Virus record (IMG/VR): IMGVR_UViG_3300021598_001531
Location: 1-27,464 of that record
Source: a virus
Reading direction: 5' to 3' (one strand)
Length of the DNA: 27,464 bases
The position numbers were made by a program, and so were the translations under genes. Shown here piece after piece: positions 2 through 23,031 of this stretch. How positions within the stretch are numbered: position 1 is the first letter of the stretch; the number at the start of each line of letters is the position of its first letter. The notes under the pieces are model-generated. The model saw nothing but the letters and a program-made list of their open reading frames with translations, searched no databases and had not been told where the DNA came from.

Positions 2-43
2 TCAGAAGAAAGAGTAGTTTGGGTTACGTCGTACTATGACTAA
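2..43 (+). CDS. C-terminal end of an upstream gene (partial)
   Basis: The frame starting at base 2 reads SEERVVWVTSYYD and stops at TAA 41-43. It overlaps the start of the giant fibre gene (ATG at 36) by 8 bases, a normal spacing for this phage. A second frame also ends here (TGA at 37-39), but its residues look less like a protein end. Only 13 codons are visible, so no function can be given; in related phages baseplate or fibre genes lie upstream. Confidence 0.45.
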   Translation, partial: SEERVVWVTSYYD

Positions 44-3000
44 GCAGGTACAGCTCAGAAGAGGAACAACAGCTGAACACGCAACATTTACAGGAGCAGT
101 AGGTGAATTAACCATTGATACTAGTAAAGACATCGCCGTTGTTCATGATGGAGTCACTACCGGTGGTCATGAACTTGTAGGTGTTGCTGCTACTGGACAA
201 ACAATTGTTAATAAAGATGGACTTGCAATTGGTTCTAGTATAGCTAGTTCTCCATTGACAGTTATAGGAAACTCATATATTTCTGGAATTGGTACTTTTG
301 GCGACGATGTTAATGTTGGATCTGACCTAACAGTTTCCGGGGATGCAACATTTGCTGGAATAACAACTACATTAGGCGTAACTATTGGGGTAGGAAATAC
401 CGATTTAATAGTAAATGGTACTGCAAGGATAACCAATACTTTGTCAATTGGTACTAGTACTATAACTTTAAATGGAAATACTAATACGATAAGTGCTGAG
501 ACTGCTTCTTTTACTAGATTATCAGTCAGTGGTGAGAATGTAACTGTTGCAACTTTTGGTAAAACAGTTACAAATACAGTTTCTTCGGGATCTACATCAA
601 TTCCAGTAAATAATACAACTTCTTTATTGGTGGGAGATTTAGTTAACGTTACTGGTATACTTACACATGTCCCAATTGTTGGATTAGGAACTACTTCAGT
701 AACTTCTTTTTATGAAACTGGATCAACGACCTCAATTTCAACAACAGTAAGTGCAGGATCCACTGTTATTGGTGTATCCACAGATGTTGGCATTTCAACA
801 TCAAATTTTATTTCTGTAGCTGGAATAATCACCAATGTACCTATTGTTGGATTTACAACTACTTCTTTAGGTAATGTTTATAACTTAGTAAGTATTACTG
901 GGGTAGCTTCAACTGTATCTTCAGCTTCAACATCTTTCCCAGTTAATGCGACAACTAATGTTATTGTTGGTGACTATGTGAGCGTTGCTAATAGTACTAC
1001 TGGTGCTATTTTAGTTAATAGACAACAAATATTAGGATTAGGATCTACTGATGGAACTCCATATTATCTAACAATCAATACTACATCTATTTCAACAACT
1101 GTAAGTATTGGATCAACTATTATTTCAATTGGAAGTACATCTGGAATTACCACAAGTTCATTTATTACCGTATCTGGAATTATCACCAATGCTCAAGTTG
1201 TTGGTGTAATTACAACAGGACTCACAACTTCTTATCAAACTTCCGGTTCAACTACCGTAGCTTCTACTGTAGCTACTGGATCAACGGTAATTTCTGTTGC
1301 TTCAACTTCTGGAATAGTTGTTGGAAGCGCTATTGACATTACTGGTATATTTGATAAGGTAAGAGTTACTGGTATAGGCCTCACTACAATAACAATTGGC
1401 GCAGGAAATACTTACAATAGTACTATATCATCTGGATTGGCTCTAACTTCATTTCTAGTTTCTGAGACTCTAAACTATGCTGCTCTGATTGGATCTGGAA
1501 GTACTTCAAATCAAGTTTTACCATCAGGAACATCTGTAAATGTAAATTCATTCATTACTCCATCAATACCTGTAGTAATCATTGGGTCTTCTGTTGGAAC
1601 TAATTTGGGTATAGGTTTTACTGTAACTTATGAAAGACTAACTACTCCTACTGGACCTGCTATTCTAATTGGATCTGGAAACACTTCAAATCAGTCCATT
1701 CCAGTTGGAACAGCTGTATCATACACATTTTTAAATAATGTAAGGTCAACTATTATTATTGGAACTGGAAATACTTCAACTTCTGTTATTTCTGCGGGAT
1801 CTTCTCTTAATATTATAAGACAAGAATCGGTGCAGAGTGATTTAAATATTAATAATTTGAAAGCGGTTGGTATTACAACTATTGAACAATTAGTTCTTTC
1901 TGGTCTAACTTTCCCAACTATTGATGGAGCAAAAGGACAAGTTCTTGCTACCGATGGTGCTGGTAATATTGGATTTACCACTGGTGGTGGAGGAGGAGGA
2001 TCTAACGTAATTCTTAGAGTATCTTCTAAGACAGGTAGTGACAGTAATGATGGCAAGATTCTTCCTCTTGCAACTATCAGAAAAGCAACTCAACTTGCAT
2101 CTATGGTTGGAGAACCGGTAACTATTCTCGTAGAAACTGGTGAATATGTAGAAGATAACCCAATTATTGTCTATGATGAGGTTTCTATTATTGGAGATTC
2201 TCTAAGAAATATCGTAGTAAGACCTCAAAATGCTGGTAAGGATTTATTTAAGGTCAGAAATGGTTGTTACCTCACAGGAATGACTTTTAATGATTATATC
2301 AATCCTACTACTAAAGTTCCTCAGCACACTTATAATTACTCCATAGCTTTTGACGATCCTTATGATTCATCAATATCTAGAACTGGTTATGCTGCTACAG
2401 CTATTGTAGATATCACAAATGCTGTCTATACGCCATCAACCGGCATTTTAACTGTTACAACAGCTACACCACACCAATTATATTCTCCAAACAGTGTAAG
2501 ACTTTCTGGACTTGCATTTACTTGTGGATATGATGAGGTTGGAGTTAGTACATTTAGATATACTAATACAACTGGTGTTTCAACTTGCACTACAGTAAAT
2601 GTACATGGACTATCTACTGGTAGCAAAGTATTTTTAGCAGGTCTTGCATTTACTTGTTCTGCAGAACATGCTGGAGTAACCACCACAATTTTCCCAGATG
2701 GGACCAGTCAATATGGAAGGATATTTACGGTAACTAGTGTTGGTAGCACCAATACATTTACATTTAATGCCGGAATTTCGACAATTGGACATAATTATGT
2801 AAGTGGAGGTACTGTACAAAAAGCACTAATTTACCCTGAAGCAAATTCCGATGGAAGAATTGATTTTGGTGTTATCAGTGTAGGTTCTTCAACTACATTT
2901 ACCATTAGAGCTGGAGTTACTACTGTACCACACTATTATACTCAAGATGGTACGGCTAGAATTTCCAAACCAATTATTAATAAATCTCCATACATACAAA

Positions 3001-6000
3001 ACTGTTCTATTCTTTCTTTCCTTGGTGGTAATGGTATTCTTGTAGATGGTAATAAGATTGCTAGTCAAAACGAAGCAATCGTTCCCGAACTTGGAGAAAG
3101 ACCTACTGCAGGAGAAGGACCGGAATTTGGTAAGTCAATGGTTGCTGCAACCTTTACCATGGTATCTTTTGGTGGTATTGGTTGGAGAACAATTAACGAT
3201 GGATATGCACAGGTTGTTTCTTGTTTCCAAATTTTCTGCCGTTATGCATCCTTAACTCAGTCGGGTGGTTACCTATCAATCACTAACTCCGCTACAAACT
3301 TTGGAGATTTTTCTCTTAGATCCACAGGTTTCAGTCCAAATGCTTTTGCATTTGATAAGGGACGTATTGCCGCAACTGGCACTAGAGACGGACTTCAAAC
3401 ACTCAAGGTCATTGGACTTGGTAGAACCGACCAAGATCTTTATGTTTTACAATTCTTAGATAATAATCTTGCCAATAGAACTGGTGATTTCAAACCAGTT
3501 GTAACAAGTCAAGAATTTAACGGTGGTCAAATTAGCACCACAACAAACATTTTCAACATTTCAGGTCACCCATTCAGTAACTTAGATCCAGTTGTATATC
3601 TTGGAAATGAAAACGACGCAAATCCACAGTTTATTAGTGGAATGGTTCCAGGAAACCAATATTATGTTTCATATATTGATGCATCTAATTTCTACCTCTA
3701 CCAAGATGAAGGTTTAGAAACCATTGTAACTATTGGATCTACATTTGTAGGCATTAATACATTATCTAAAAATAATCAAGAATTTTTTGTAGAAGAAATC
3801 TTTGATACTCATGGTTCATACCAAACAGTCAGTCTTGCATCAACTTCAAGTACACTTAAGTTTGTATCTGGAAGACAAATTACTCAAACCGTAACAGGGG
3901 GTAATGCAGTTGGTTATGCACTGACATTTAATTCAACCTCAAGACAACTTGTTGTTTCTGTAGAGGCTGTTGCTGGAGTTAGGAGATTCTTCTCCACTGC
4001 GGGTGGAAATATTAGTGATCACAATGCATCCCCAGTTTCAATTGGTGTAACTGCTGTTGCTGGAATAACAACATATAAAACGGTAGACTTCAAAGTAGAT
4101 TCTACTAATACAGGAACCGTTATTGCTGGTATTAGCACACTTCCAGAAAATTACTACTTACATTTCCATAGACCATCTATTATTAACTCTTCTGGTCATA
4201 CATGGGAATATTCTGGATCTGGAACTGATTACAATGCACTTCCTCAAAATGGTGGTAAAGGTGATGCTGCAACTGAACAGGTTTCAGAACTTGGTGGTAG
4301 AGTATATGCTTCTGGTACTAATGAACTTGGTGACTTTAAGATCGGTGATCAGATTACTGCATTTAACAGAACTGGTAACATTATCTTCAACAACAAAGTT
4401 ACAATCGGTCAGTTAGATAGTATTCGTCTTTCACTCTCTGGTGGTGTAGCCGTTGAGGAATTCTCTACAGACGTAAATCTTGGAGAAGGTGAGATTGGTG
4501 GACCACAGAATAAGAGAGTTTCTACTCAACTTGCTGTAAGATCTTTCCTTGGAAATAGACTTGGGACATTCATTGATAAGACGGTATCTGCAAATGCAGT
4601 TCCGAATGCAGTTGTTCAGTTAAATGCTAATGGCCAAATTAACCCAGATCTAATTCCTCCAAAAGTTGTTAATTATAACATTACCAACGTTGGTGGCGGC
4701 AGAACTATGTTATCCAACCAAATTCCATCAATTAATATTCTTCAGGGGGACACTGTTGTTGAGCCGGATGATTCTTATGTACTCGTTAATGATGTTTTAA
4801 GTCAATATCTGGTCTTAGATACTGATGGAAGAGATTATAACTTCAATAATGGTAATGTAGTTACTTCCGCACTTGCTGAAGCAGTTACTGGCGTTGTTAC
4901 GGCACCTCCTAGAGGACTTGCAATTGGTGTTGGTACAACTGGGTACGTAGATTATAATTACGTTGGTTATGGAACCACAGGCCTTGTTAAGGGCGTGATG
5001 TTGGGTGGTATAATTAATGCTGCTGGATCTGGATATAATGTCGCTGGAGTTTATACTGGAGTACAATTACTCACACAGACAGGTGTAGGTACTCAAGCCA
5101 CTGCTAATATTACGGTTAGTGCTGGTGGTAGTGTAACGAGTGTAGATATTCATGGTGGTGGTAGGTACTACGCAAGTGGAAACATTGTTTCTGCTGCGGC
5201 TACTGCTTTGGGTGGAAGAACTGGTGGATCTGACTTCCAGTTCACTATTAATGACGTTGAAACTAGACTTTACATTGGTCTTACAAATAATCAAAAGTTT
5301 GCTGGTTCTTCAGCTCTGGCCGATTATATTGCAGATAATGATGCAGCTGGTATTTCTACAGTATTAACTACAAGATATGAAGTAACCTTTACACCTACAG
5401 ATATTTCGGTTGGAGGTAATATTGACTTCATAAATGATAGAATTGTGGTTGGAGCCGGTAACAGTTTTGTTAATGGAGATCCAATCATTTATGACGCAAA
5501 TGGTGGTAACATTATTACTGTTGGTGGTCTTGGTATTATTAACTTGTCTACTTACTATGTTAAGGTAGTTGGAGCGGGTACTTCAGTTGAATTACACAGA
5601 ACATATCAGTTAAATGATCCATTAGATCTAACTGGTAGTGGAACAGGTACACACAAACTTGCAAGAGCTGTAGTAAACGTAGAAGAGGATGCTCTCGTAA
5701 TAGTTGGTCACGGATATTCAACTGGTACTCCAGTTAGAGTGACTGGATCAACACCAGTTGGAATTGATACTCATGCATTCTACTATGTTGGTTCAATAAC
5801 AACTAACTCATTTACATTCCACGAAACGCAATCTGATGCATTGTCTTCCGTAAATGGAGTAAGTTTCAATACAATTGCAATTGGATCAACTTCTACTGGT
5901 ACAATAACTCTAACAAAACAAAACGTAAGATATGCTTCTGTTGTTAATACTTCATCCACAAATCCCAATAACTGGGCTTTACTTGCTAGAGACAGTATTG

Positions 6001-6974
6001 ACGCTTCTAACATTGTATCTGGAGTAATTTCACCTACAAGACTAGGAACTGGATCTGCAAACTCAGACACTGTTCTTACCGGTACTTCGGAATATAAGAA
6101 GAATGTCTTCTCAGTGGGCATTGGTACGACTCAACCATTAGGTGTAAGTTCTTATACAAGTGCAGATTTAGCTGCAGGTGGAGTTGGAGTTAACACATAT
6201 TATGGTTCATTAAATTTTACAGTCACTAGAGCTGCTGGATCTGCAGATCTTTATTCAACTCTTGGTGTTGCAAGATTTAAGACCAGTACCTTCTCTGTAG
6301 ATACTGATGGTAATGTTCAGATTAAAAATTCACTAACTGGTGATGTTGATGCTGCTACTCTAGGTGGTCAAACCGGTGCTTATTATCTAAACTCACTAAA
6401 TCATACTGGCGCTGTTCCTATTACCAGGGGTGGTACTGGTCAAAATGGTGTTCCTGCTGCAGGTGCAATTCTGCAGGGTAATGGAACTGCTTATAACTTA
6501 ACTACTGCTCCAATATTTACAGGTATCACAACCTTCAGTGGCGGCACTGCATCATCTTCAACAACAACTGGACAGGTTGTAATTACTGGTGGTCTTGGAG
6601 TTAGTGGAAATATTAACCTAGGAGGAACCTTAAATGCGGTTTCCAAGTCATTCTTAATTGATCACCCAACAAAACCAGGATACAAACTCCAATATGGTTC
6701 TCTTGAGGGTCCAGAAAATGGAGTATATGTAAGAGGTAAACTTGTTGGTTCGGATACAATTCAACTTCCAGATTACTGGACTGGATTAGTTGATGAAGAA
6801 ACAATTACCGTAACATTAACTCCAATTGGACAAACTCCAGTTCTACATAGTGCAGTAAGTACAAGTATTTCTGAAGTAAAGGTAGCTAGTGCAGGTGATA
6901 TTAACTGTTACTATGTTGTTTACGCAGAAAGAAAGGATACTGAAAAACTTGTTGTAGAATTTGAGGGGGTTTGA
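36..6974 (+). CDS. Giant tail-fibre-like structural protein (2312 aa)
   Basis: Predicted virion protein of the tail or fibre apparatus. Residues about 4-50 (VQLRRGTTAEH... GELTID... VVHDG) match the N-terminal domain of major-tropism-determinant type fibre proteins, which usually attaches a fibre to the tail. Residues about 175-470 are five degenerate beta repeats of about 55-60 aa, followed by three shorter G-S/T-G-N/S-T-S repeats to about 600. From about 655 a segment with GSDSNDG, TIRKAT and VSIIGDS looks like a right-handed parallel beta-helix of pectate-lyase type. The middle holds more beta-rich sequence, including a GxGY-type motif shared with gp14. Residues about 2204-2312 (SKSFLIDHP... 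SLEGPE... VYAERKD) form a C-terminal domain common in marine phage fibres. The ATG at 36 is supported by the complete N-terminal domain. The sequence is rich in Thr, Ser, Gly and Val with few Cys, as expected for an extracellular trimeric fibre. Its exact position in the particle is inferred. Confidence 0.85.
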   Translation: MTKQVQLRRGTTAEHATFTGAVGELTIDTSKDIAVVHDGVTTGGHELVGVAATGQTIVNKDGLAIGSSIASSPLTVIGNSYISGIGTFGDDVNVGSDLTVSGDATFAGITTTLGVTIGVGNTDLIVNGTARITNTLSIGTSTITLNGNTNTISAETASFTRLSVSGENVTVATFGKTVTNTVSSGSTSIPVNNTTSLLVGDLVNVTGILTHVPIVGLGTTSVTSFYETGSTTSISTTVSAGSTVIGVSTDVGISTSNFISVAGIITNVPIVGFTTTSLGNVYNLVSITGVASTVSSASTSFPVNATTNVIVGDYVSVANSTTGAILVNRQQILGLGSTDGTPYYLTINTTSISTTVSIGSTIISIGSTSGITTSSFITVSGIITNAQVVGVITTGLTTSYQTSGSTTVASTVATGSTVISVASTSGIVVGSAIDITGIFDKVRVTGIGLTTITIGAGNTYNSTISSGLALTSFLVSETLNYAALIGSGSTSNQVLPSGTSVNVNSFITPSIPVVIIGSSVGTNLGIGFTVTYERLTTPTGPAILIGSGNTSNQSIPVGTAVSYTFLNNVRSTIIIGTGNTSTSVISAGSSLNIIRQESVQSDLNINNLKAVGITTIEQLVLSGLTFPTIDGAKGQVLATDGAGNIGFTTGGGGGGSNVILRVSSKTGSDSNDGKILPLATIRKATQLASMVGEPVTILVETGEYVEDNPIIVYDEVSIIGDSLRNIVVRPQNAGKDLFKVRNGCYLTGMTFNDYINPTTKVPQHTYNYSIAFDDPYDSSISRTGYAATAIVDITNAVYTPSTGILTVTTATPHQLYSPNSVRLSGLAFTCGYDEVGVSTFRYTNTTGVSTCTTVNVHGLSTGSKVFLAGLAFTCSAEHAGVTTTIFPDGTSQYGRIFTVTSVGSTNTFTFNAGISTIGHNYVSGGTVQKALIYPEANSDGRIDFGVISVGSSTTFTIRAGVTTVPHYYTQDGTARISKPIINKSPYIQNCSILSFLGGNGILVDGNKIASQNEAIVPELGERPTAGEGPEFGKSMVAATFTMVSFGGIGWRTINDGYAQVVSCFQIFCRYASLTQSGGYLSITNSATNFGDFSLRSTGFSPNAFAFDKGRIAATGTRDGLQTLKVIGLGRTDQDLYVLQFLDNNLANRTGDFKPVVTSQEFNGGQISTTTNIFNISGHPFSNLDPVVYLGNENDANPQFISGMVPGNQYYVSYIDASNFYLYQDEGLETIVTIGSTFVGINTLSKNNQEFFVEEIFDTHGSYQTVSLASTSSTLKFVSGRQITQTVTGGNAVGYALTFNSTSRQLVVSVEAVAGVRRFFSTAGGNISDHNASPVSIGVTAVAGITTYKTVDFKVDSTNTGTVIAGISTLPENYYLHFHRPSIINSSGHTWEYSGSGTDYNALPQNGGKGDAATEQVSELGGRVYASGTNELGDFKIGDQITAFNRTGNIIFNNKVTIGQLDSIRLSLSGGVAVEEFSTDVNLGEGEIGGPQNKRVSTQLAVRSFLGNRLGTFIDKTVSANAVPNAVVQLNANGQINPDLIPPKVVNYNITNVGGGRTMLSNQIPSINILQGDTVVEPDDSYVLVNDVLSQYLVLDTDGRDYNFNNGNVVTSALAEAVTGVVTAPPRGLAIGVGTTGYVDYNYVGYGTTGLVKGVMLGGIINAAGSGYNVAGVYTGVQLLTQTGVGTQATANITVSAGGSVTSVDIHGGGRYYASGNIVSAAATALGGRTGGSDFQFTINDVETRLYIGLTNNQKFAGSSALADYIADNDAAGISTVLTTRYEVTFTPTDISVGGNIDFINDRIVVGAGNSFVNGDPIIYDANGGNIITVGGLGIINLSTYYVKVVGAGTSVELHRTYQLNDPLDLTGSGTGTHKLARAVVNVEEDALVIVGHGYSTGTPVRVTGSTPVGIDTHAFYYVGSITTNSFTFHETQSDALSSVNGVSFNTIAIGSTSTGTITLTKQNVRYASVVNTSSTNPNNWALLARDSIDASNIVSGVISPTRLGTGSANSDTVLTGTSEYKKNVFSVGIGTTQPLGVSSYTSADLAAGGVGVNTYYGSLNFTVTRAAGSADLYSTLGVARFKTSTFSVDTDGNVQIKNSLTGDVDAATLGGQTGAYYLNSLNHTGAVPITRGGTGQNGVPAAGAILQGNGTAYNLTTAPIFTGITTFSGGTASSSTTTGQVVITGGLGVSGNINLGGTLNAVSKSFLIDHPTKPGYKLQYGSLEGPENGVYVRGKLVGSDTIQLPDYWTGLVDEETITVTLTPIGQTPVLHSAVSTSISEVKVASAGDINCYYVVYAERKDTEKLVVEFEGV
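561..1430 (+). repeat. Five degenerate repeats inside the giant fibre gene
   Basis: The protein here repeats a unit of about 55-60 residues of the form TVSxGSTxIxV, then xxGIxxxxxIxVxGI, then xxVxVxGI. Units begin near bases 567, 723, 891, 1071 and 1251. Units 2 and 4 resemble each other most (both contain SISTTVS and a GIITN segment), which suggests the array grew by duplication of a larger block. The same type of unit appears once as an insert in gp15. Divergence between units is high at DNA level. Confidence 0.7.
1486..1830 (+). repeat. Three short Gly-Thr-Ser repeats in the giant fibre gene
   Basis: Three copies of a short block (IGSGSTSNQ, IGSGNTSNQ, IGTGNTSTS, each followed by a PxGT/AGS segment) begin near 1488, 1668 and 1758. 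They follow directly on the larger repeats and precede the short linker before the beta-helix segment. They are seen directly in the translation; their role is unknown and probably structural. Confidence 0.6.
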
Positions 6975-6977
6975 TAG

Positions 6978-8423
6978 ATGACAATATCGGTAGGAAGTTC
7001 TTCTTTTATTTCTGATGGATTAATTTTATATTTTAATCCATCAAACCCCAAAAATTACCTATTGAATGAAATTGAGGTTTTATTAATTGGTGGTGGGGGA
7101 GGTGGATCGGAAAATCAATATGATGATGGATCCGGAGGTGGTGGAGGGGGATTTTTACAGAGGGTTACGAATGTCTCTTCATCTACAGCTTATACTATTA
7201 CTGTGGGTAATGGAGGTGGAACTGGTGGAAGTGGATCTGTCGGTGGAAATACCAGTGCTTTTGGGTTAATTGCTTATGGCGGCGGCGGTGGGTCTAGTCA
7301 TAGGAGTAGTGGTGGAACTGTTGATGGAGCTAGTGGCGGTGGATCAGGTGGACAATACTCTTCAGATATTCCAGTAGTAGGTAGAGCAATATATGGCGAT
7401 CAAGGAAATGATGGTGGTGCAAGTATAACTTATGGTGGAGGAGGTGGAGGAGGTGCGGGCTCTGCAGGACAAGGTTCAATAACTTATGGTCATGGCGGTT
7501 ATGGAGGCAAAGGTAGAGCTTCTTCAATATCTGGAACTTTAAGATATTATTCTGGAGGCGGAGGCGGTTTTGGTTATGCTAATTTGGGTAGAGGTGGAAT
7601 CGGTGGAGGTGGTTCTACGGGAGTTTCTCCACAAGCGAATAGTGGTGGTGGAGGAGGTGGAGGAAAAACCACCGGAAACAGAGCTACTGGTGGTGCTCAG
7701 GGAGTTGTGATAATTAGATACCCTGGTCCACAAAAAGCAACAGGTGGTAATACTATTACTTATATTGGTGGATATACTATTCATACATTTACTTCAACTG
7801 GAACGTTTACCACTCTTGGCACACCATCTAATGGTTCTACTGTTTATGGATTGTATGATCTGAGTAATAATTTAAATTCTGCAAATACCTTAGGAGCGTC
7901 TTATGCTCCTACTTACAATATTAGTGCATCGGGAACTTTACTTTTTGATGGATCTGATGATATTATTCAGTTTGATAGATCCCCCATTTTAAGTAATTTG
8001 AAAGCTTCTTTGGGAGGTGAAGGTTATACTGTTTTAATCTGGGCAAGATCTACGAGTACCACTGGCCAGTGGAGAAAATTAATAGGAAATGATGATGGCG
8101 AGAATTATATTGATCTATACCAAAATCCTAGTGGATATTATCATCAGGAGTGTGGATCAACGTTATATGTTGATGGTACACAAGTATCTCAGGGATCTTA
8201 TTATATGCCAAACGCCGGTTATCATTTTTGGGGAGCCACAAATTATAACTCCGGCACACTAAATAATCCCAGTAGAGGATTTGGAATATTTAATGAACCA
8301 GATAGAGTTAGATCATATCAACTTGCAGGAAATTTGGGAGAAGTTTTTATATTCAATAGAGTATTAACTACAAACGAGATTAATTTAATTTTTAATTCCA
8401 CAAAAAGTAGGTATGGACTATAA
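6978..8423 (+). CDS. Cassette 1 A protein: LamG-type lectin domain split by a glycine-rich module
   Basis: Predicted tail-fibre adhesin of 481 aa. Residues 13-28 (DGLILYFNPSNPKNY) are the first strand of a LamG/concanavalin-like domain. That domain is interrupted at residue about 30 by a glycine-rich module (about 33-246, starting IEVLLIGGGGGG and ending VVIIRYPG). It resumes after a linker (about 247-275, GYTIHTFTS) and continues through LLFDGSDDIIQF to the usual LamG-type end GEVFIFNRVLTTNEI. Glycine-rich modules of this kind form receptor-binding sandwiches in some T-even adhesins; the role here is inferred. The start ATG has a strong GAGGGGG ribosome site lying in the end of the fibre gene. 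No promoter is seen, so it is probably co-transcribed with that gene. The TAA overlaps the next ATG (TAATG). Confidence 0.8.
   Translation: MTISVGSSSFISDGLILYFNPSNPKNYLLNEIEVLLIGGGGGGSENQYDDGSGGGGGGFLQRVTNVSSSTAYTITVGNGGGTGGSGSVGGNTSAFGLIAYGGGGGSSHRSSGGTVDGASGGGSGGQYSSDIPVVGRAIYGDQGNDGGASITYGGGGGGGAGSAGQGSITYGHGGYGGKGRASSISGTLRYYSGGGGGFGYANLGRGGIGGGGSTGVSPQANSGGGGGGGKTTGNRATGGAQGVVIIRYPGPQKATGGNTITYIGGYTIHTFTSTGTFTTLGTPSNGSTVYGLYDLSNNLNSANTLGASYAPTYNISASGTLLFDGSDDIIQFDRSPILSNLKASLGGEGYTVLIWARSTSTTGQWRKLIGNDDGENYIDLYQNPSGYYHQECGSTLYVDGTQVSQGSYYMPNAGYHFWGATNYNSGTLNNPSRGFGIFNEPDRVRSYQLAGNLGEVFIFNRVLTTNEINLIFNSTKSRYGL
7716..7796 (+). repeat. 81-bp exact repeat, copy 1 (linker between modules)
   Basis: This stretch is identical to 10296-10376 and encodes the linker between the glycine-rich module and the rest of the lectin domain (RYPGPQKATGG to HTFTS). 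The flanking DNA differs. Cassette 3 has a related but diverged version near 12812. Confidence 0.9.
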
Positions 8424-8504
8424 TGGCTAACTCAGATAAAAATATTCTAATAACTCCCAATAAAAATGCCTCTGGTATTCCAGAAATTGCTCTGACTGGT
8501 TTTG
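8414..8504 (+). repeat. 91-bp exact repeat, copy 1 (end of A1, start of B1)
   Basis: This stretch is identical to 10994-11084. It begins in the last codons of the A gene, spans the TAATG overlap and covers the first 27 codons of B. In both copies the identity ends at the same base, and each B gene loses its frame at that point. The distance from the 81-bp repeat is the same in both copies (offset 2580). Confidence 0.92.
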
Positions 8505-9528
8505 TGGTTTTGGCAATTCTACAATTTCAGCAAATATTCCAGATTCTAACATTGGTACTTTAAATTTTTCTACAAGTACAAAAAATATTTTTTCAATTGA
8601 TAGTGATCAAAATTCAAATATCCAACTATCTATAGGAAGCACTACATCTGGTAGTTTTTTAGAGCTCAAAAATTTTGGAAATTTAAGTATAAACACTCCA
8701 AAAACTACAATATATGGAAAGGGGTTGAAATTATCAAAAGTAAAACCAACAACATCTCCTTCCGTTAACGGAAAAATTGCTTACGATTCCGTACAAAAAA
8801 CTTTGGTAGTTAGCAATTCAACTACATGGACTTCTTATAGTTCTCCAACTTATGTACAAGATGGACTTATAGTTTACTACGATGCTTCCAGACCAGACTC
8901 ATATCCAGGAAGTGGTAGCGTAGTTTACGATATTAGTGGAAGTTCTATTGGATCTGGTGAAATGCATGGAACAATGGGAAATGTTGGGTTTAGTACTGAA
9001 AGAGGTGGAGCCTTAACATTTAATGGATCCAATTCTTATATTGATGTCAATAATAGTAGTGATTTATTGCGAGATTTTTCTGGATATACTGTAGAGTGGT
9101 ATACCAAGATAACTACAGCTACTGCATGTGAAATTTTTGGTAATTATGGTCCTTCGTTTACAACTAATTACTTGTGGATTGCAGCAAGATATGGACATTA
9201 TTTAAATGGAGCAAATCCTTATTTTGTTGCAGGACCTTACACTGAGGCTGCTCCTCTTGAACCGGGATACACTTATCATGGAGCGGTGACTAGAGATCCT
9301 CAAACTAGAAATACGATGTTGTATTTGAATGGATTTTTAAATACAAGTTCTACTGCAGATGCAAGAATAGGAAATGGAATCAATTATAGAATTGGATTGG
9401 ATGTAAACTCAAGTACGGCCGAACCTTTTGGTGGTAGTTTATATTTAATCAGAGTCTATAATAGACCTCTTACCCCTAAAGAAATTCAAATAAATTTTGA
9501 GTCCGCAAGGACCAGAGTTGGATTATAA
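8423..9528 (+). pseudogene. Cassette 1 B gene: fibre protein with LamG-type lectin end, frameshifted
   Basis: The gene starts at ATG 8423, overlapping the stop of A1, with MANSDKNILITPNKN as in B2 and B3. As read, it stops at TAA 8561-8563 after 46 codons. The cause is visible: TGGTTTTG occurs twice in tandem at 8497-8512. Removing one copy restores one open frame to 9528, giving 365 aa that continue as GFGNSTISAN, the same GFGNS as in B3. The restored protein has an N-terminal module of about 135 aa and an uninterrupted LamG-type domain (DGLIVYYDASRPDSYPGSG through GALTFNGSNSYID to LIRVYNRPLTPKEI). It is probably an adhesin subunit. A TTG at 8725 opens the downstream frame but lacks a well-spaced ribosome site. 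The duplication could be real (an off state), or a sequence error. Confidence 0.8.
8497..8512 (+). repeat. 8-bp tandem duplication that breaks B1
   Basis: TGGTTTTG is present twice, head to tail. The first copy is the last 8 bases of the 91-bp repeat; the second leads into GCAATTCT, which fits the intact B frame. Eight bases shift the frame, matching exactly the difference between the B1 start frame and the frame of the long downstream part. Confidence 0.92.
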
Positions 9529-9531
9529 ATA
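9524..9531 (+). promoter_or_regulatory. T4-type late promoter for A2-B2
   Basis: An exact TATAAATA, the known T4 late promoter -10 element, lies across the stop codon of B1 and 32 bases before the ATG of A2. The same placement is seen before A3 and gp20. Transcription would begin a few bases downstream and give cassette 2 its own late transcript. Confidence 0.75.
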
Positions 9532-9563
9532 TCTTTTATGAAGACTAATAATAGGAAAAAATA

Positions 9564-11003
9564 ATGACCATAAGAGTTGGATCTGGAATAATTAAAGATG
9601 GTCTTATTTTGCATCTTGATGCAGCTGATCAGTTAAATTATCTACTTTCCGTTGTTGAAGTTCTTGTGGTCGCTGGCGGTGGTGGTGGCGGTGTTTGTTA
9701 TGGAGGAGGAGGTGGTGGAGGAGGAGTAGTATATTCAAATTCGTATTCCGTAACACCTGGTACTGGTATAAACGTTTCCATAGGTAATGGTGGAACTAAT
9801 CAAGTAAACGTTGTCGGTAATGGTGGCCCTGGAGGCAACTCTTCTTTTGGTAATTTAACTGCTATTGGTGGCGGCTACGGCGGCGGTAATTGTGGTAATG
9901 CAGGAGGTTCTGGGGGATCAGGAGGCGGTGGATCTGGTACAGGGTCTGCAAGAGTATCTGGTGGTACAGGAACTCCTGCGATGGGTTTTGATGGAGAAAC
10001 TTCTATTCCCGCTGGTGGAGGTGGAGGTGGAGGTGCTGGTTCTTTAGGATTTAGAAGAGCTGGCGGGAATGGACTTCCATTTACCATTTCCGGATCTATT
10101 CAATACTATGGAGGAGGTGGTTCCGGCGGTGGACCAGAGGACATGCCAGGCGGAGCTGGCGGTGGTGGAATGGGGGGCACTGCAGTTGCTTCTGGAAGAG
10201 CAGATGCGACTCCTAACACTGGCGGTGGAGGTGGAGGTAGTATTATTTCCGGTTCTGGAGTTTCTGGTATAGGTGGATCAGGAATAGTAATTGTAAGATA
10301 CCCTGGTCCACAAAAAGCAACAGGTGGTAATACTATTACTTATATTGGTGGATATACTATTCATACATTTACTTCAGCTGGAACATTTACTCCAAATTCT
10401 TTACCATCAAATAATAGTTCCATCAACGGATTATTTGATTTAACTGGAGATGGTAATACGGCTTTTCAATCTGGGGGAGTAACTTATAATGCAAGTAACT
10501 CTGGTGCATTAAATTTTGATGGGAGTAATGATTTTTTAACTTCTCCAGCATCCTCTTTGTTTTCATTTGGGACAGGGGATTTTACTTTAGAAATTTTGAT
10601 ATATCCAGAAAGTTTTTCTACTTATACCCATATGATCGCTCTTCCAGATCAAAATACATTTGCACTTAAAGCCAATGCATCTGATGGCCAAATATACTTT
10701 TATAGTCCATCTTATAATACTTTTGGTTCTACTTCGGGTTGGACTTTATCTTTGAATACTTGGAATCATGTAGTTTTTAAAAGAGAATCTTCTATAGGTT
10801 ATGCTTTTTTAAATGGTATTTCTAGGGGATCTAAATCTGGATTTATTAACAATTTTACATCACGAGTATTAAATATCCACAATGGATGGCCAAATGAATT
10901 TACTCAATGTAGAATATCAAATGTAATGATATATAATAGATCATTAACTACTTCAGAGATCCAACAAAACTTCAATGCACTCAGAGGGAGGTTTGGACTA
11001 TAA
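9564..11003 (+). CDS. Cassette 2 A protein: LamG-type lectin domain split by a glycine-rich module
   Basis: Predicted adhesin of 479 aa, paralogue of A1 and A3. Residues 12-27 (DGLILHLDAADQLNY) are the first LamG strand. Residues about 31-244 are the glycine-rich module (VEVLVVAGGGGG to VIVRYPG). The linker is encoded by the 81-bp exact repeat, and the rest of the lectin domain runs from GLFDLTGDGN and ALNFDGSNDF to ISNVMIYNRSLTTSEI and GRFGL. The variable part between the two exact repeats has the same length as in A1 (617 bases) but a different sequence, suggesting different ligand specificity. An AGGAAAAAAT ribosome site precedes the ATG, and a late promoter lies just upstream. The stop overlaps the B2 start (TAATG), with a GGGAGG ribosome site for B2 inside the last A2 codons. 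Confidence 0.8.
   Translation: MTIRVGSGIIKDGLILHLDAADQLNYLLSVVEVLVVAGGGGGGVCYGGGGGGGGVVYSNSYSVTPGTGINVSIGNGGTNQVNVVGNGGPGGNSSFGNLTAIGGGYGGGNCGNAGGSGGSGGGGSGTGSARVSGGTGTPAMGFDGETSIPAGGGGGGGAGSLGFRRAGGNGLPFTISGSIQYYGGGGSGGGPEDMPGGAGGGGMGGTAVASGRADATPNTGGGGGGSIISGSGVSGIGGSGIVIVRYPGPQKATGGNTITYIGGYTIHTFTSAGTFTPNSLPSNNSSINGLFDLTGDGNTAFQSGGVTYNASNSGALNFDGSNDFLTSPASSLFSFGTGDFTLEILIYPESFSTYTHMIALPDQNTFALKANASDGQIYFYSPSYNTFGSTSGWTLSLNTWNHVVFKRESSIGYAFLNGISRGSKSGFINNFTSRVLNIHNGWPNEFTQCRISNVMIYNRSLTTSEIQQNFNALRGRFGL
10296..10376 (+). repeat. 81-bp exact repeat, copy 2
   Basis: Identical to 7716-7796. It encodes the linker between the glycine-rich module and the second part of the LamG-type domain of A2. 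Confidence 0.9.
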
Positions 11004-11084
11004 TGGCTAACTCAGATAAAAATATTCTAATAACTCCCAATAAAAATGCCTCTGGTATTCCAGAAATTGCTCTGACTGGTTTTG
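10994..11084 (+). repeat. 91-bp exact repeat, copy 2 (end of A2, start of B2)
   Basis: Identical to 8414-8504. After base 11084 the two cassettes differ at once: copy 1 continues TGGTTTTGGC and copy 2 continues GTAAATAAT. The frame of B2 is lost at this junction. Confidence 0.92.
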
Positions 11085-11960
11085 GTAAATAATACTTCCC
11101 AAGCACCAGTATTCAATGTTAATTCTAATGGAAATTTAATTTTATCGCCAAAATTAGGGACAACAAATATTAGTGGAAATGGAATAACACTTCCATCTTA
11201 TAGTAGCAATTCATTACCGGATGGAGAAGAAGGACTTTTAATATATGATAGAACACTAAAAATTGTACGTATATATTCAGATAATAAATGGGTAAATTTG
11301 GGAAATCCACCAATTGTAACTAGTGGATTGGCCCTTAGATTGGATGCAAGTGATATTCGTTCATATCCCGGAAATGGTTCAATATGGTATGATCTAAGTG
11401 GATATAATAACAACTGCAATTGGAGCAGCACACCTTCATTTGATCATAGGGGATTTTTTAGATTCAATGGATCAAGTCATGCAGGAGTTATTACCAATAA
11501 TGGAAGTTTGAATACCAATTATGAACAAACTTTAATAATGGTACTGAAACATAATTATAACTCAGGAAGAAGAAATCCATGGAACCAAGCATACGCTGGT
11601 TTTGGAACTTGGACTCATGAACAGGGGGAAAATATTAGTTGGTATTTTGGTGATGGTGGCGGAGATAATAGTCCATACTTGGGATATAGTAGCCCATCAA
11701 CACCCCGAAATAGATGGAACATTCTTGCTACTGTTAGAAATATTTCAAATTATCAGTGGTATTATGATGGAATTTCTACCGGTGTTTCTTCAAATCCTTA
11801 TGCAGTTTTAACAGATAGTAGCGCAAATATTACAATAGGAAATGGATATGCTGGATATTGGCAAGGTGACATGGGAATGGTTCTTATGTACAGAAGAGCT
11901 TTGACTACTGACGAAATTCTCCAGACTTATAATGTCATAAGACTTCGTTATCCGATATAA
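11003..11960 (+). pseudogene. Cassette 2 B gene: fibre protein with LamG-type lectin end, frame broken by a deletion
   Basis: Starts at ATG 11003 overlapping the A2 stop, with the same first 27 codons as B1, then stops at TAA 11090-11092 after 29 codons. Just beyond the break the other frame continues VNNTSQAPVFNV and stays open to 11960. It carries the second half of the B N-terminal module (GNGITLPSY, GLLIYDRTLK) and an uninterrupted LamG-type domain (SGLALRLDASDIRSYPG to GMVLMYRRALTTDEI). Compared with B3, the DNA jumps from the codon for Gly28 to that for Val60, so about 95 bases are missing if the two were colinear. The upstream and downstream homologous sites share GTAA, so a short-homology deletion is plausible. 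A misassembly at the repeat end is equally possible. The downstream TTG at 11082 has no ribosome site. Confidence 0.78.
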
Positions 11961-11963
11961 ATA
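11956..11963 (+). promoter_or_regulatory. T4-type late promoter for A3-B3
   Basis: An exact TATAAATA overlaps the stop codon of B2 and lies 29 bases before the A3 ATG. It has the same geometry as the promoter before A2. It would allow cassette 3 to be expressed independently of the broken B genes upstream. Confidence 0.75.
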
Positions 11964-11992
11964 TAAAAAAAGATGATTTTACAATAATATAA

Positions 11993-13573
11993 ATGGCAAT
12001 AAGTATTGGCCAAACTTCTATTACTCCAACTAATGCAGATCTTCTTTTTTACTTAGATCCTGCGATTAGTTATAATTACACTTTATCTGACGTTGAAGTT
12101 CTCGTAGTCGCTGGAGGCGGCGGAGGAGGCGGCTGGGGAGGAGGAGGAGGCGGTGGGGGTGTAGTTTATAATAGATTGTATCCGGTGACTCCTGGTACTG
12201 GAATTAATATTTCTATTGGAAATGGAGGAAGTCCAGGAACTAACGCATATACCTCCGGTGGAGATGGAGAAAGTTCAGTTTTTGGTACTATTACTGCAAT
12301 AGGTGGAGGAGGCGGCGGACATTATAATGGGAATAATGGTAGAGCTGGTGGATCCGGAGGAGGCGGCGGTGGAGCCTCAAATGCAACTTATGGATTCGTG
12401 ACCACTGGTGGCTCTGGTACTCCGAGACAAGGAAATAATGGAGGTAGAGGTGGTGGGCTCCCTGACGGTTCAATCTATAATCCAGGTGGAGGTGGAGGTG
12501 GAGCTGGAGAACGTGGATATGATTTTGATATTAATCTTAGACTGGGTGGAAAGGGTGGAGATGGACTGCCATTTAATATTTCTGGAAGATTAAAATATTA
12601 TGGCGGCGGTGGAGGAGGCCATACAGATGGTAGAGGTGGAACCAACTCAACTTCTTTTGGAGGAAAAGGTGGTGGAGGTCGTGGAGGAAATTATGGCATT
12701 CCACGAAGAGGATTAGATGGTGCTCCAAATACTGGAGGTGGGGGAGGGGGATCTTATGGAACCTCATCCGGATATGAGTGTGGTGCTGGTGGTTCTGGAG
12801 TAGTCATCATTCGTTATCCAGGATTACAAAAAGCATCAGGTGGAAACACTATCACTCAGGTTGATGGTTATACTATTCACACGTTTACTTCGGGTGGAAC
12901 TTTTACTCCAAATACAGCACCAACAAATGGAGGTGGTTTGAATGGACTTCAAGATTTGGGTCCAAATGGATATAATTTCTATCAAGTCAATACACCAACT
13001 TATAATACAAGTAGATCTGGAACAATTGATTTCAACGGAACTAGTGCATACTTGGAATCCGTTTTACCAACAAGATATAGTGCAGCATCCGTTTATACTA
13101 TTAATATGTGGTTTAAAATTAATGGTGCCCCTAGTGGTGCAAGTGGAAATCAGGCCAATTTCTTGATAGATTTAGATGTTACTGGTGGATCTTTCAATGG
13201 ATTGATAGTTGATTGGCAGCCATACTTGTCAGGAAGTTCGCAAATGAGATTTGCATATGCAACTAGACCATCTAGTGGTGGATCTTATACACCTCTACTA
13301 GGATCAGTTTTAACTCAGGGGGTATGGTATAATGGTTGTGTTGTAAAAAATGGAACTACAGAAACCAGACTATATTTAAATGGATCTTTAGAATCTACAT
13401 ATTCTGGCAATATGCCTTCTTGGGGCACAAATACTGTCCGAATAGCTAGATGGACTGATGGAACAGTATATTCCAATTGTTCTGTTGGTGTAGTTTGGGT
13501 TCAAAATAAAGCCTTAACTGCTTCTGAAGTTTTGCAAAACTTTAATGCACTTAAAGGGAGGTATCAAGTCTGA
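11993..13573 (+). CDS. Cassette 3 A protein: LamG-type lectin domain split by a glycine-rich module
   Basis: Predicted adhesin of 526 aa, the most divergent of the three A paralogues. The first LamG strand (NADLLFYLDPAISYNY) is at residues about 14-29. The glycine-rich module spans about 33-273 (VEVLVVAGGGGGGG to VVIIRYPG). The linker (LQKASGGNTIT, GYTIHTFTS) is diverged at DNA level from the exact repeat of cassettes 1 and 2. The remainder of the lectin domain runs from GLQDLGPNGYN and TIDFNGTSAYLES to SVGVVWVQNKALTASEV and KGRYQV. The ribosome site before the ATG is weak, but a late promoter lies 29 bases upstream. The TGA overlaps the B3 ATG (TGATG), and GGGAGG in the last codons is the likely ribosome site for B3. 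Confidence 0.8.
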   Translation: MAISIGQTSITPTNADLLFYLDPAISYNYTLSDVEVLVVAGGGGGGGWGGGGGGGGVVYNRLYPVTPGTGINISIGNGGSPGTNAYTSGGDGESSVFGTITAIGGGGGGHYNGNNGRAGGSGGGGGGASNATYGFVTTGGSGTPRQGNNGGRGGGLPDGSIYNPGGGGGGAGERGYDFDINLRLGGKGGDGLPFNISGRLKYYGGGGGGHTDGRGGTNSTSFGGKGGGGRGGNYGIPRRGLDGAPNTGGGGGGSYGTSSGYECGAGGSGVVIIRYPGLQKASGGNTITQVDGYTIHTFTSGGTFTPNTAPTNGGGLNGLQDLGPNGYNFYQVNTPTYNTSRSGTIDFNGTSAYLESVLPTRYSAASVYTINMWFKINGAPSGASGNQANFLIDLDVTGGSFNGLIVDWQPYLSGSSQMRFAYATRPSSGGSYTPLLGSVLTQGVWYNGCVVKNGTTETRLYLNGSLESTYSGNMPSWGTNTVRIARWTDGTVYSNCSVGVVWVQNKALTASEVLQNFNALKGRYQV

Positions 13574-14727
13574 TGGCTAATTCTGATAAAGATATTTTAA
13601 TAACGCCTAATAAAAATGTTTCTGGGTTACCAGAAATAAGATTTACTGGATTTGGTAATTCAAGTCTCTCTCTTGTAGTTGCAGATGATAATACTGGAAA
13701 GATAAACTTTGTAAGTTCTGGTGCAACTGCTTTTTCAATTGATACCAATGTAAATAATGGAGTATTACTTAACGTTGCTGACAGAAATTCAGTACCACTT
13801 TTAGAAATTTCCGACACAAATTCTTTACTTGGATATGAATTGGGTACTGTTTCCGTGGAAGGTGATGGAATAGTATTACCTTCTTATGGAACAACTGCAT
13901 TACCAATAGGAACTCCAGAAGGAACTATTGTTTATGATGATAACCATCAAGTAGCAAAAGTATATAATGGCACTGTTTGGACACCAATTGGTGGCAGAAA
14001 AAATGGATTAACTGCTGATACCGCGGCAGAATCAACAGAACAATTAATCACAGATTATCCGGATTCTCCAACTGGTTTTTATTGGATTCTCGTTGATAGA
14101 ATCCCACAACTATTTTGGGTTGACATGGTTTATGAGGGTGGAGGATGGATTCTTGTATTAAATAATAGAATTAATACAAATGGAATGACAGGATTGAATT
14201 ATCAATCAGCAACTACTAGAGTAATTAATTATAGAGGAAATTATTATTCAGCAACAGGAAATAATCCTACAAACTTTAATCTTTGGGTTGGATTAGATGC
14301 ATGGGTAAAATTAGCTAATGCCAACTTTAGTACATCAAATAGAGTTGTTGAATTTGTTGCCTCTGCATATCAACCCCTTGGGGCAGTTCATCAACATACA
14401 AAAAGGGCTAGTTGGGATTGGAGTGGTTGGGGTGGTGCTTACGCTTGGCAAGGTCTTGCAAATACTTATTTAGAGTTGGGTGGATCTCTACCAGGATTAT
14501 ACTCATATCACGCAGCAAATGGATATAATTTAACTACTTTTGATGTAGACCAAGATGTAGCTGGTAACAATTGTTCTACTGCTTATTTTAATCAACCGAA
14601 TTGGTATGGTGCATGTTGGTCTGGTAGTCCTTTTGGGGGAGGTGGTTCCGGCAGTCATGCTGATGCTTGGTTCTGGGATAGTTCTACTAGCGACTATCAC
14701 AATTATGGTGCTTTATACGTTAGGTAA
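13573..14727 (+). CDS. Cassette 3 B protein: fibre protein with fibrinogen-like lectin end (intact)
   Basis: A 384-aa protein and the only intact B gene. Residues 1-135 form the shared B module (MANSDKDILITPNKN, TGFGNSS, GDGIVLPSYGTTALP, EGTIVYDDNHQ), a type common in phage fibre and appendage proteins. Residues about 140-384 differ completely from B1 and B2. GFYWI, then FWVDM, GGGWILV, a CWSG segment and the end AWFWDSS...YGALYVR resemble the fibrinogen C-terminal or intelectin-like lectin fold. The cysteine usual in the CDM motif of eukaryotic members is replaced (WVDM). It is probably a receptor-binding subunit recognising surface sugars. The fold call rests on motifs only. The gene is translationally coupled to A3. 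Confidence 0.75.
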   Translation: MANSDKDILITPNKNVSGLPEIRFTGFGNSSLSLVVADDNTGKINFVSSGATAFSIDTNVNNGVLLNVADRNSVPLLEISDTNSLLGYELGTVSVEGDGIVLPSYGTTALPIGTPEGTIVYDDNHQVAKVYNGTVWTPIGGRKNGLTADTAAESTEQLITDYPDSPTGFYWILVDRIPQLFWVDMVYEGGGWILVLNNRINTNGMTGLNYQSATTRVINYRGNYYSATGNNPTNFNLWVGLDAWVKLANANFSTSNRVVEFVASAYQPLGAVHQHTKRASWDWSGWGGAYAWQGLANTYLELGGSLPGLYSYHAANGYNLTTFDVDQDVAGNNCSTAYFNQPNWYGACWSGSPFGGGGSGSHADAWFWDSSTSDYHNYGALYVR

Positions 14728-14732
14728 AATTT

Positions 14733-15134
14733 ATGGAACCAATTAAAAGGAAATCAAACAAATTAAATATTTTAAAGTCTGAGGATGTATATAAATTAGT
14801 TTGGATAAATGATGACGAAATTATTTTTTCAGAAAAATATATTATTTCTTTTGATTCTGAAAATAATCCAACTAATTTCAATCTAACAGAAATCATTGAA
14901 CATAAAAAACATTGTTGTTTAGATATTGATGACGAAAATTTTCAAGTAATTGAAGAAGAAAATTTTAGTTTTATTATTGGTGTAAATGATGCAATTAATG
15001 ATTTGCGACCTGGATCAAAATATCAGTTAAACGGTAAAACATTTACTTATTGGGAACATGATTCTCAACCACCGTCTTGGGAAGAAATTTCTTTACACAT
15101 AAAAAAAATGCAGAGGGATTTGGATTCAAACTAG
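14733..15134 (+). CDS. Unknown protein after the adhesin array (133 aa)
   Basis: I do not recognise this protein. It is acidic, starts MEPIKRKSNKL, and has two neighbouring cysteines (HCCLD) and a C-terminal part with FTYWEHDSQPPSWEEI. It has no signal peptide or membrane segment. It starts 5 bases after the B3 stop with an AGG ribosome site overlapping the end of B3, so it belongs to the cassette 3 transcript, and it is followed by a hairpin/terminator. Small proteins directly downstream of fibre genes often act as fibre assembly chaperones, and the tryptophan/proline-rich end would fit, but this is inference from position. Confidence 0.65.
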   Translation: MEPIKRKSNKLNILKSEDVYKLVWINDDEIIFSEKYIISFDSENNPTNFNLTEIIEHKKHCCLDIDDENFQVIEEENFSFIIGVNDAINDLRPGSKYQLNGKTFTYWEHDSQPPSWEEISLHIKKMQRDLDSN

Positions 15135-15153: not shown

Positions 15154-15161
15154 TATAAATA
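15154..15161 (+). promoter_or_regulatory. T4-type late promoter for gp13 and the following neck/tail genes
   Basis: An exact TATAAATA 27 bases before the ATG of gp13. Its last bases lie inside the 5' arm of the hairpin at 15157-15184. A T4 late start about 5-8 bases downstream would place the first RNA base near the hairpin loop. Confidence 0.75.
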
Positions 15162-15188: not shown

Positions 15189-15862
15189 ATGGCGCAACCA
15201 TCTAGTAGGGCGGAGTTGAAAGAATACTGCCTTAAGCAACTAGGAAAGCCAGTTTTAGAAATAAACGTAGATGATGATCAGATTGATAATCTGATTGATG
15301 ATGCGATTCAGTATTTCCATGAGAGGCATTATGATGGTATTGATCGTATATTCCTGAAGCACAAACTTACTCCTTCAACCAAAACAACTTTAGCTCAACC
15401 AGGTCCAGTTGGAAGTGCAACTACTTCTCCAGTAGTTGTTGGTTCTGGGTTAAATTAGATCTTCTCAACTATGCAATGGTTAAGAGATATCTTGAGGATT
15501 TGGATTTTCTTTTAAACCCTAATGCACAAATTCGTTTTAACAAATTAAATCATAAATTATACTTAGATATAGACTGGCAACAAGTTGGTGAAAATGAATA
15601 TGTAATTATTGATTGTTATAGAATTGTAGACCCATCGGATGCTCCCAAACTTTATAATGATTGGTGGTTAAAAAAATACCTCACTGCATTAATCAAGAAA
15701 CAGTGGGGACAAAACATGATTAAATTTAATGGTGTTTTACTTCCTGGAGGAGTTCAACTCAATGGAAGACAAATCTATGATGATGGAGTTGCAGAAGTAG
15801 AGAAACTTGAACAACAACTTAAGGATGAGTACGAATTACCACCACTTGATCTCATAGGTTGA
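15189..15862 (+). pseudogene. gp13: Neck protein gp13, frame broken in the middle
   Basis: gp13 forms the head-tail neck of T4-like phages with gp14. The N-terminal part (MAQPSSRAELKEYCLKQLGK, then INVDDDQIDNLIDDAIQYF) is typical and ends at a TAG at 15456-15458 after 89 residues. The C-terminal part resumes in another frame with LDLLNYAMVKRYLEDLDFLL from about 15455 and ends with the characteristic ELPPLDLIG at 15862. The two parts together hold about 225 residues. From memory of the family, a conserved middle segment of roughly 50 residues between the low-complexity linker and the LLNY motif is absent, so a deletion with frame loss is likely. Because gp13 is needed for virions, a sequence or assembly fault must be considered. 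It is transcribed from the late promoter at 15154. Confidence 0.8.
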
Positions 15863-17321: not shown

Positions 17322-18374
17322 ATGATATCAAATTATTTTTATCACGAAATATTGAGAAAGACCATCGTATCTTTCGGTACTCTTTTTAATGATATTCAAA
17401 TCAAACATAAAGATAATGCAGGCGATGATTTTAGTATCTTAACTGTGCCGATTGCTTATGGTCCGGTTCAAAAGTTTTTAGCTAGAATCGAACAAGTTCC
17501 CGACCTAAAAAAGAGAGTAGCTATAACTCTTCCAAGAATGTCATTTGAAATGACTGGTATTCAATATGATCCTTCTCGAAAGTCTTCGACAATGCAGACT
17601 TTTAAAACAGTTGATAAGACTAGTAATAATGAATTAACACAGGTTTTTATGCCTGTTCCATATAATGTTAATATTCGTCTTTCAATTATGTCTAAATTGA
17701 ATGAAGATGCTTTGCAAATTGTAGAACAAATACTACCTTACTTTCAACCACATTTTAACTTAACAGTAGATCTCGTATCGAGTATTGGAGAAAAACGAGA
17801 TATTCCAATGATTCTGGAGAGAATCACAATGGATGATCAGTATGAGGGTGATTTTACTACAAGAAGGATTTTAATTTATACTCTAGATTTTACCGCAAAA
17901 ACATACCTATTTGGTCCAGTTGGAAATGGTAATGAGGCGTTAATCAAACAGGTTCAAGTCGATTATTACACAAATACAAATAGAGTTAATCCTTCAAGAC
18001 AACTTAGATATGTTGCTGAACCAAGAGCAATTAAAGATTACAATAACGATGAAATTACTATAGTTTCAGAAAATATTTCTGAAAATGTCACTGAGTTTAA
18101 TGTATCTGATGCAACTGGATTAATTGTAAATTCATACATTCAAATTGACAATGAATCCATGTTTATTCGTAGTATTAATGGAAATACTTTATTGGTAAAT
18201 AGAGGTCAAGATAATACTGATATTACAACTCACTCATCCGGAACTGCGGTTAATGTGATTAATAATGCAGATGATGAACTAATAGATATGGATGATGACT
18301 TTGGATTCAGTGAATATCGTTATGATTTTGCTGACGGTAAGATTTATAGTACAACAAAAGGAATTGATGTATGA
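17322..18374 (+). CDS. gp15: Tail completion / sheath stabiliser gp15
   Basis: Forms the terminal ring that closes the tail and stabilises the contracted and extended sheath in T4-like phages. It is 350 aa. Residues 1-235 are the conserved part (MISNYFYHEILRKTIVSFGT, LFNDI, LPRMSFEMTGIQYDPSRK, VPYNVNIRLSIMSK). Residues about 242-313 are an added beta domain (TEFNVSDATGLIVNSYIQID, then GNTLLVNRGQ, HSSGTAV) of the same kind as the repeats in the giant fibre protein. An acidic tail follows. The start ATG has no strong ribosome site. ACTAAATA at 17290-17297 could be a poor late promoter (6 of 8 bases). The stop overlaps gp16. Confidence 0.88.
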   Translation: MISNYFYHEILRKTIVSFGTLFNDIQIKHKDNAGDDFSILTVPIAYGPVQKFLARIEQVPDLKKRVAITLPRMSFEMTGIQYDPSRKSSTMQTFKTVDKTSNNELTQVFMPVPYNVNIRLSIMSKLNEDALQIVEQILPYFQPHFNLTVDLVSSIGEKRDIPMILERITMDDQYEGDFTTRRILIYTLDFTAKTYLFGPVGNGNEALIKQVQVDYYTNTNRVNPSRQLRYVAEPRAIKDYNNDEITIVSENISENVTEFNVSDATGLIVNSYIQIDNESMFIRSINGNTLLVNRGQDNTDITTHSSGTAVNVINNADDELIDMDDDFGFSEYRYDFADGKIYSTTKGIDV

Positions 18375-22995: not shown

Positions 22996-23031
22996 TTTGT
23001 AGTCAAGTTGAACTTCTTCAGAGGGAAAGAC

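Follow-up and report, generated by a model that had tools for sequence, protein, structure and literature searches.

Downstream of its long tail fibre gene, a virus record carries what appear to be three two-gene adhesin cassettes (A1-B1, A2-B2, and A3-B3), which raises the question of whether all three are real and whether their parts are exchanged among related phages. The whole stretch analyzed (27,464 bases; hereafter, the window) begins inside the long fibre gene, and the cassettes are followed by gp13/Ad2, the head closure gene gp14/Hc2, and the tail sheath stabiliser; after the neck genes come both terminase subunits, sheath, tube, and portal, in that order (T4-like phage). Since the terminase showed 80-88% identity to those of Synechococcus phages S-SCSM2R, Sf-CH5, and S-T4, this marine or aquatic phage likely has a cyanobacterial host of the Synechococcus type. 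In cultured phage records, no match to the cassette DNA covered more than 2% of the query, and neither this DNA nor a full-length A was present in any record.

In this clade, proteins of the neck and tail seem to contain inserted domains. The gp14-like protein (15864-17294) had 476 aa versus ~290 aa in many relatives, its residues ~190-390 forming a fibre-like stretch that matched tail-fibre and baseplate PHROGs; the gp15-like protein (17322-18374) had 350 versus ~268 aa, and the sheath (23008-25428) 806 aa. An ORF of 140 aa (18812-19234) between the small and large terminase subunits had no family match and was missing from contig L004, otherwise 88-98% identical: a small gene presence/absence polymorphism.

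Table 1. Positions of the cassettes, their joints and promoters, and the flanking genes in the window.
Feature	Position	Strand	Remarks
Long tail fibre gene	36..6974	+	2312 aa; Mtd_N N-terminus (Pfam PF18454, 1.1e-10; PHROG tail fibre, 1.7e-162); upstream flank, most of its 3' part ~97-100% identical among relatives with differing cassettes
A1	6978..8423	+	481 aa; LamG first strand 6978-7070; Gly_rich_2 7071-7715
A1 linker joint	7716..7811	+	remaining lectin 7812-8420
A1-end/B1-start joint	8414..8504	+	candidate homology patch for exchange; identical to 10994-11084
B1	8423..9528	+	shared N-module, LamG end; frame broken; orthologue in L006 intact (369 aa)
Late promoter of cassette 2	9524..9531	+	TATAAATA, exact T4-type; overlaps B1 stop codon
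A2	9564..11003	+	479 aa; first strand; Gly_rich_2 9654-10295; linker joint 10296-10391; lectin
A2-end/B2-start joint	10994..11084	+	82 nt from ATG and 9 before; identical to 8414-8504
B2	11003..11960	+	shared N-module, LamG end; ~118 bp absent at 11084/11085
Late promoter of cassette 3	11956..11963	+	TATAAATA, exact
A3	11993..13573	+	526 aa; first strand; Gly_rich_2 12092-12811; linker joint 12812-12907; lectin
B3	13573..14727	+	shared N-module, fibrinogen-like GGGW end; only intact B in window contig
gp13 late promoter	15154..15161	+	TATAAATA; downstream edge of exchanged block in relatives
gp13 (head-tail adaptor)	15189..15862	+	downstream conserved flank; split by ~155-bp gap at 15453/15454

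Layout of the A and B genes

The first-pass annotation had described every A gene as a first LamG strand followed by a glycine-rich module, a linker, and the rest of the lectin, and domain matches and an AF2 model bore this out. A2 and A3 were 44 and 40% identical to A1, respectively, and the parts kept across A1-A3 were the first strand, the entry of the Gly-rich module, the linker (RYPGPQKATGGNTIT..GYTIHTFTS.GTFT), and the C-terminus. Gly_rich_2 (PF21722) was detected in all three proteins with 69-92 bits, above the curated cut-off of 24.3, and in A2 it was followed C-terminally by Laminin_G_3 (PF13385; 1.2e-16). The model of A3 (pLDDT 85.3, pTM 0.84) matched domain 4 of arabinanase AbnA with a Z score of 22.6 and an rmsd of 2.1 over 190/206 residues. 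Since this alignment ran from model residue 16 to residues 518-519, across the Gly-rich insert, the first strand and the part after the Gly module are predicted to form one jelly roll; as modelled, A is a single ConA/LamG jelly roll with a 245-residue Gly_rich_2 domain inserted after its first strand. The list of PDB fold matches of A3 was filled by the lectin half and dominated by receptor-binding domains of toxins with the same generic ConA jelly roll, which we read as likeness in fold and not in function. Against PDB sequences, the Gly module matched only antibody Gly-linkers. When viral contigs were scanned with a profile of A, the matches listed, which were filled by Gly patterns, comprised only distant Gly-rich proteins. 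A LamG homologue was the C-terminal part of an S-PM2 protein labelled "virion structural protein", a label that is annotation only.

The B genes shared an N-terminal module and differed in their ends, as had been claimed; the end of B3, on the other hand, was fibrinogen-like (GGGW type) and not a LamG lectin. The earlier phrase "swapped lectin ends" was right for A2 and A3. The window B3 end matched NF040941 with 31.6 bits (curated cut-off 30) and that of L006 matched PF00147 with 29.5 bits (curated cut-off 22). Fibrinogen-like B3 ends were assigned by profile in the window, L006, L095, and L099, and through 66-96% identity to these profile-matched ends in L004, L091, and L092; those of L093 and L094 gave no family match. 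Since B1 and B2 have LamG ends and B3 mostly a fibrinogen-like one, the head at position 3 tends to be of another type. An AF2 model of B3, made from 18 sequences, had a pLDDT of 38.6. Directly after B3, an ORF of 133 aa (14733-15134; clade counterparts of 133, 123, and 142 aa) had no family match and could encode a fibre-folding partner. L094 had two extra genes after B3 (12389-13631): the first encoded a 2OG-Fe(II) oxygenase, and the start of the second resembled the C-terminal part of the 133-aa product, as if the small gene had been fused to it.

Both the separate late promoters and the overlapping stop and start codons described earlier were found. Exact TATAAATA preceded A2 by 32 nt and A3 by 29 nt. 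All four exact copies in the window were on the + strand, 27-32 nt before A2, A3, gp13, and gp20; the chance of this placement was ~7e-9 by position alone, and the count itself (four versus 3.6 expected) was not in excess. Across the five locus types defined below, the element was exact before A2 in every one; before A3, it was exact in the window and L006/L091 and had one mismatch in L092, L093, and L094. Upstream of A1, no exact late promoter was found in the window or in any relative. The A stop and B start overlapped as TAATG in A1-B1 and A2-B2 and as TGATG in A3-B3, implying coupled translation, and such overlaps occurred throughout the relatives except after A1 of L093.

Among non-orthologous cassettes, mean nucleotide identity was 77% in the first 27 codons of B and 72% in the A linker, versus ~50% in the bodies. 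Two B starts within one genome were identical over 82 nt in the window, a value that assembly could have affected, and over 89 nt in L006 and 101 nt in L092, values independent of the window; L093 and L094 contained no such pair. Between genomes, B starts at the same position were at most 91% identical, apart from the near-identical L006/L091. As far as these sequences indicate, the within-genome identity is what gene conversion, or a recent copying event at the joint, would produce, and the joint may be the actual crossover site.

Cassettes and their exchange in related phages

Five independent locus types were compared: the window together with contigs nearly identical to it, L006/L091, L092, L093, and L094. 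All five contained three A and three B genes between the long tail fibre and gp13/gp14, so that the three cassettes in a row, as first described, were repeated by four independent relatives. While the number was constant, the order A-B-A-B-A-B was replaced by A-A-B-B-A-B in L093, and strict A-B pairing is therefore not universal. The constant number also means that replacement of cassettes was observed here, and their gain or loss was not. Other contigs of marine T4-like phages had, at the same place, versions of this lectin that lacked the Gly insert, with 1-4 such genes in a row, often overlapping by 1 nt, followed by one B-module protein; among 190 loci with the B module, more than one B occurred only in contigs of this clade. 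The Gly insertion and the multiple B genes are thus features of the clade.

In 250-nt bins, the tail fibre genes of L006 and L094 were ~97-100% identical as far as position ~1750, and the sequence from gp13 onward was again 97-100% identical, whereas the whole A/B block between them was only ~50% identical, all six genes having been replaced. L093 and L099, each compared with L006, gave a similar pattern of near-identical flanks and divergent cassettes; the block is a non-syntenic, hypervariable island (~50%) between flanks of ~97-100%. Identity resumed at ~10755-10768 of L006, which is the gp13 TATAAATA (10760-10767), in two comparisons (with L094 and L099), and at the upstream edge it decayed within the final ~450 nt of the fibre gene, collapsing at A1. 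L006 and L091 differed by 10 mismatches in 8300 nt, and their divergence began at 8674, ~100 nt beyond the A3 linker. Within the A genes, five of seven homologous pairs combined 74-83% identity in the Gly domain with 27-30% in LamG, the background identity of unrelated LamG being 28 ± 4%; A3 of the window and of L094 showed the reverse pattern (Gly 49%, LamG 56%). These contrasts indicate that swapping of the lectin ends was independent of the Gly domains. The exchange of cassettes, previously an inference from one genome, is strongly supported by near-identical phages that differ only in their cassettes. The relatives are all contigs from metagenomes, the sample numbers of several being adjacent, and their long-range phasing could be chimeric; even so, several cassette sets beside one near-identical flank need real junctions. 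In L204, L206, and L212, whose gp13 was 81-91% identical, one giant protein of 3242-3315 aa stood directly before gp13 with no cassettes, which underlines the island as an exchange site.

Could the row of cassettes have been made by a metagenome assembler that multiplied or chimerically joined a single one? The window contains three junction scars (an 8-bp overlap in B1, a ~118-bp gap in B2, and a ~155-bp gap in gp13), and other contigs stop at the same repeats. We nevertheless regard multiplication in assembly as barely credible and reject it, because three diverged cassettes were present in five locus types; within one genome, the A and B bodies were near background identity (~50% at the nucleotide level) and so are not copies of one cassette. 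The scars themselves appear, from the contigs compared, to be assembly defects, because an unmerged 8-bp overlap and two gaps match what joined contigs leave. In B1, the 8-bp TGGTTTTG was in tandem duplicate (8497-8512), versus a single copy in the near-identical contig end L084; B2 was intact in L004 (97.8% identical; 359 aa) and L006 (366 aa); and gp13, split into two ORFs in the window, was whole in L008 (99.98% identical over 6 kb), L004, and L006. Because of the duplication and the gap, B1 and B2 are out of frame after codon 27; neither is open from its ATG in the window contig, a correction to the earlier description. The frame is lost precisely where the shared 82-nt block ends, which might suggest silent or phase-variable B1 and B2, with a frameshift as the switch and B3 alone expressed. 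This was also rejected as very improbable: all six A/B genes were open in L006, L091, L092, L093, and L094, the near-identical L084 and L004 were free of the defects, and the defect in B2 was a gap, not a change in repeat number. As for an adhesin switch by inversion, the window contained only weak inverted pairs (74-86%, 20-30 nt), none of which framed the ends.

Possible function and alternative readings

We propose, with a probability of roughly three in four, that the locus is a variable host-recognition island with three coupled adhesin pairs, which are exchanged by recombination at conserved patches. The three pairs would be translationally coupled late virion adhesins: A, a ConA/LamG lectin bearing a Gly-rich insertion after the first strand, and B, which would resemble a fibre, sharing an N-terminal module for attachment and ending in a lectin (B1 and B2) or a fibrinogen-like domain (B3). 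Conserved patches (A start, A linker, A-end/B-start joint, and gp13 promoter) would frame the variable bodies, and homologous recombination at these patches could exchange a single body, a single gene, or the entire block; with the bodies so framed, replacement would be possible while reading frames, couplings, and promoters stay. A and B are presumably located on the virion, where B may act as the anchor and the ends of both may bind cell-surface glycans, with three specificities together on one particle. A host-binding role is plausible from the domain content (LamG, Gly_rich_2, and fibrinogen-like) and from the position of the locus, which matches the host recognition cluster published in PMC7029224.

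In T4, the wac whiskers have their place beside gp13. The cassettes lie just upstream of the neck genes, and the folds of LamG and Gly-rich domains serve generically in glycan binding or display; A and B might therefore be neck or capsid decorations that bind particles, extracellular polymers, or environmental surfaces instead of a host receptor. We consider this quite improbable, since the slot is occupied in relatives by giant genes of tail-fibre size (3242-3315 aa), tail fibres are placed in the host recognition cluster by PMC7029224, and the strong diversification is also compatible with receptor evolution. In another reading, A helps B to fold or caps it, in the manner of a tail-fibre chaperone or a gp38-type tip adhesin, and does not bind by itself, each cassette then encoding one adhesin. 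Coupled translation, implied by the stop-start overlap, would suit such partners, and Gly-rich tips form the distal fibre end in S16 gp38 and Pam3 gp24 (PMC9608196). However, A is a complete lectin jelly roll in the model, its insert-free LamG relatives number 1-4 per phage beside a single B, and in L093 one A has no B next to it; a partner role is possible, if rather unlikely.

Within the island reading, a more specific proposal is a combinatorial adhesin system, in which the joints divide the cassettes into exchangeable Gly-rich tip, lectin, and B end, and intragenomic gene conversion keeps the joints homologous. We put this forward tentatively, as somewhat short of an even chance. If true, three fixed, coupled, and promoter-equipped cassettes would yield many receptor-binding combinations on a near-clonal backbone, which is relevant to how T4-like phages of abundant aquatic bacteria track variation in host surfaces, and the locus would be a case of joint homogenisation keeping an adhesin array exchangeable. 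The natural near-clonal phages with mappable breakpoints (gp13 promoter, A linker region, and A/B joint) would provide ready pairs for tying adhesin modules to host range.

Relation to known loci

By comparison with described loci, the island appears to be of an already known kind, the host recognition cluster (HRC) or multi-receptor-binding-protein (RBP) locus. According to PMC7029224, HRCs are known from pelagimyophages and cyanomyophages, with the VrlC gene as the upstream border; here VrlC would fall outside the 27-kb record, which starts in the long fibre gene. Like the present locus, the HRC occupies a hypervariable stretch of structural genes in T4-like phages of abundant aquatic bacteria, with the long-fibre region on one side and the neck genes on the other, and encodes binding domains of ConA type, Mtd, and other kinds; the cassettes likewise lay among structural genes, directly ahead of the neck genes. 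The passages of PMC7029224 considered describe varied content, whereas in the island analyzed here three coupled A-B pairs follow each other regularly. In marine T4-like phages L010, L012, L013, L018, and L028, tandem single-domain LamG genes have the same locus and lectin, with several 1-nt overlaps and then one B-module protein, and differ in having one B, no Gly insertion, and no A-B repeats. L028 (9704-14286) also carried another multi-adhesin array before gp13, consisting of a fibrinogen-like-looking protein and three LamG-ended proteins, with a shared N-terminal module different from that of the window, followed by a Gly-rich protein.

In Pam3 gp24 and S16 gp38, the receptor-binding tip is Gly-rich (PMC9608196), and A resembles them in having a Gly-rich, putatively receptor-binding part in which Gly motifs are conserved and loops vary; in A, the Gly-rich domain (PF21722) is inserted in a ConA lectin. 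The nearest functional analogue appears to be the multi-tailspike locus of Ackermannviridae, in which conserved N-termini permit the acquisition and recombination of receptor-binding genes (PMC11414711, PMC8432352). As in CBA120 TSP1-4 and kuttervirus S117 (PMC11414711, PMC8432352, PMC7506556), where shared N-modules carry different ends swapped between phages, B1-B3 are tandem RBP-type genes with related N-termini and different C-termini. The CBA120-type proteins are tailspikes in one branched complex, whereas the ends described here are of lectin and fibrinogen-like type, and a second gene family (A) is present, unlike in the Ackermannviridae loci. What sets the present island apart from the HRC as described is the regular row of three A-B pairs with repeated promoters and conserved joints.
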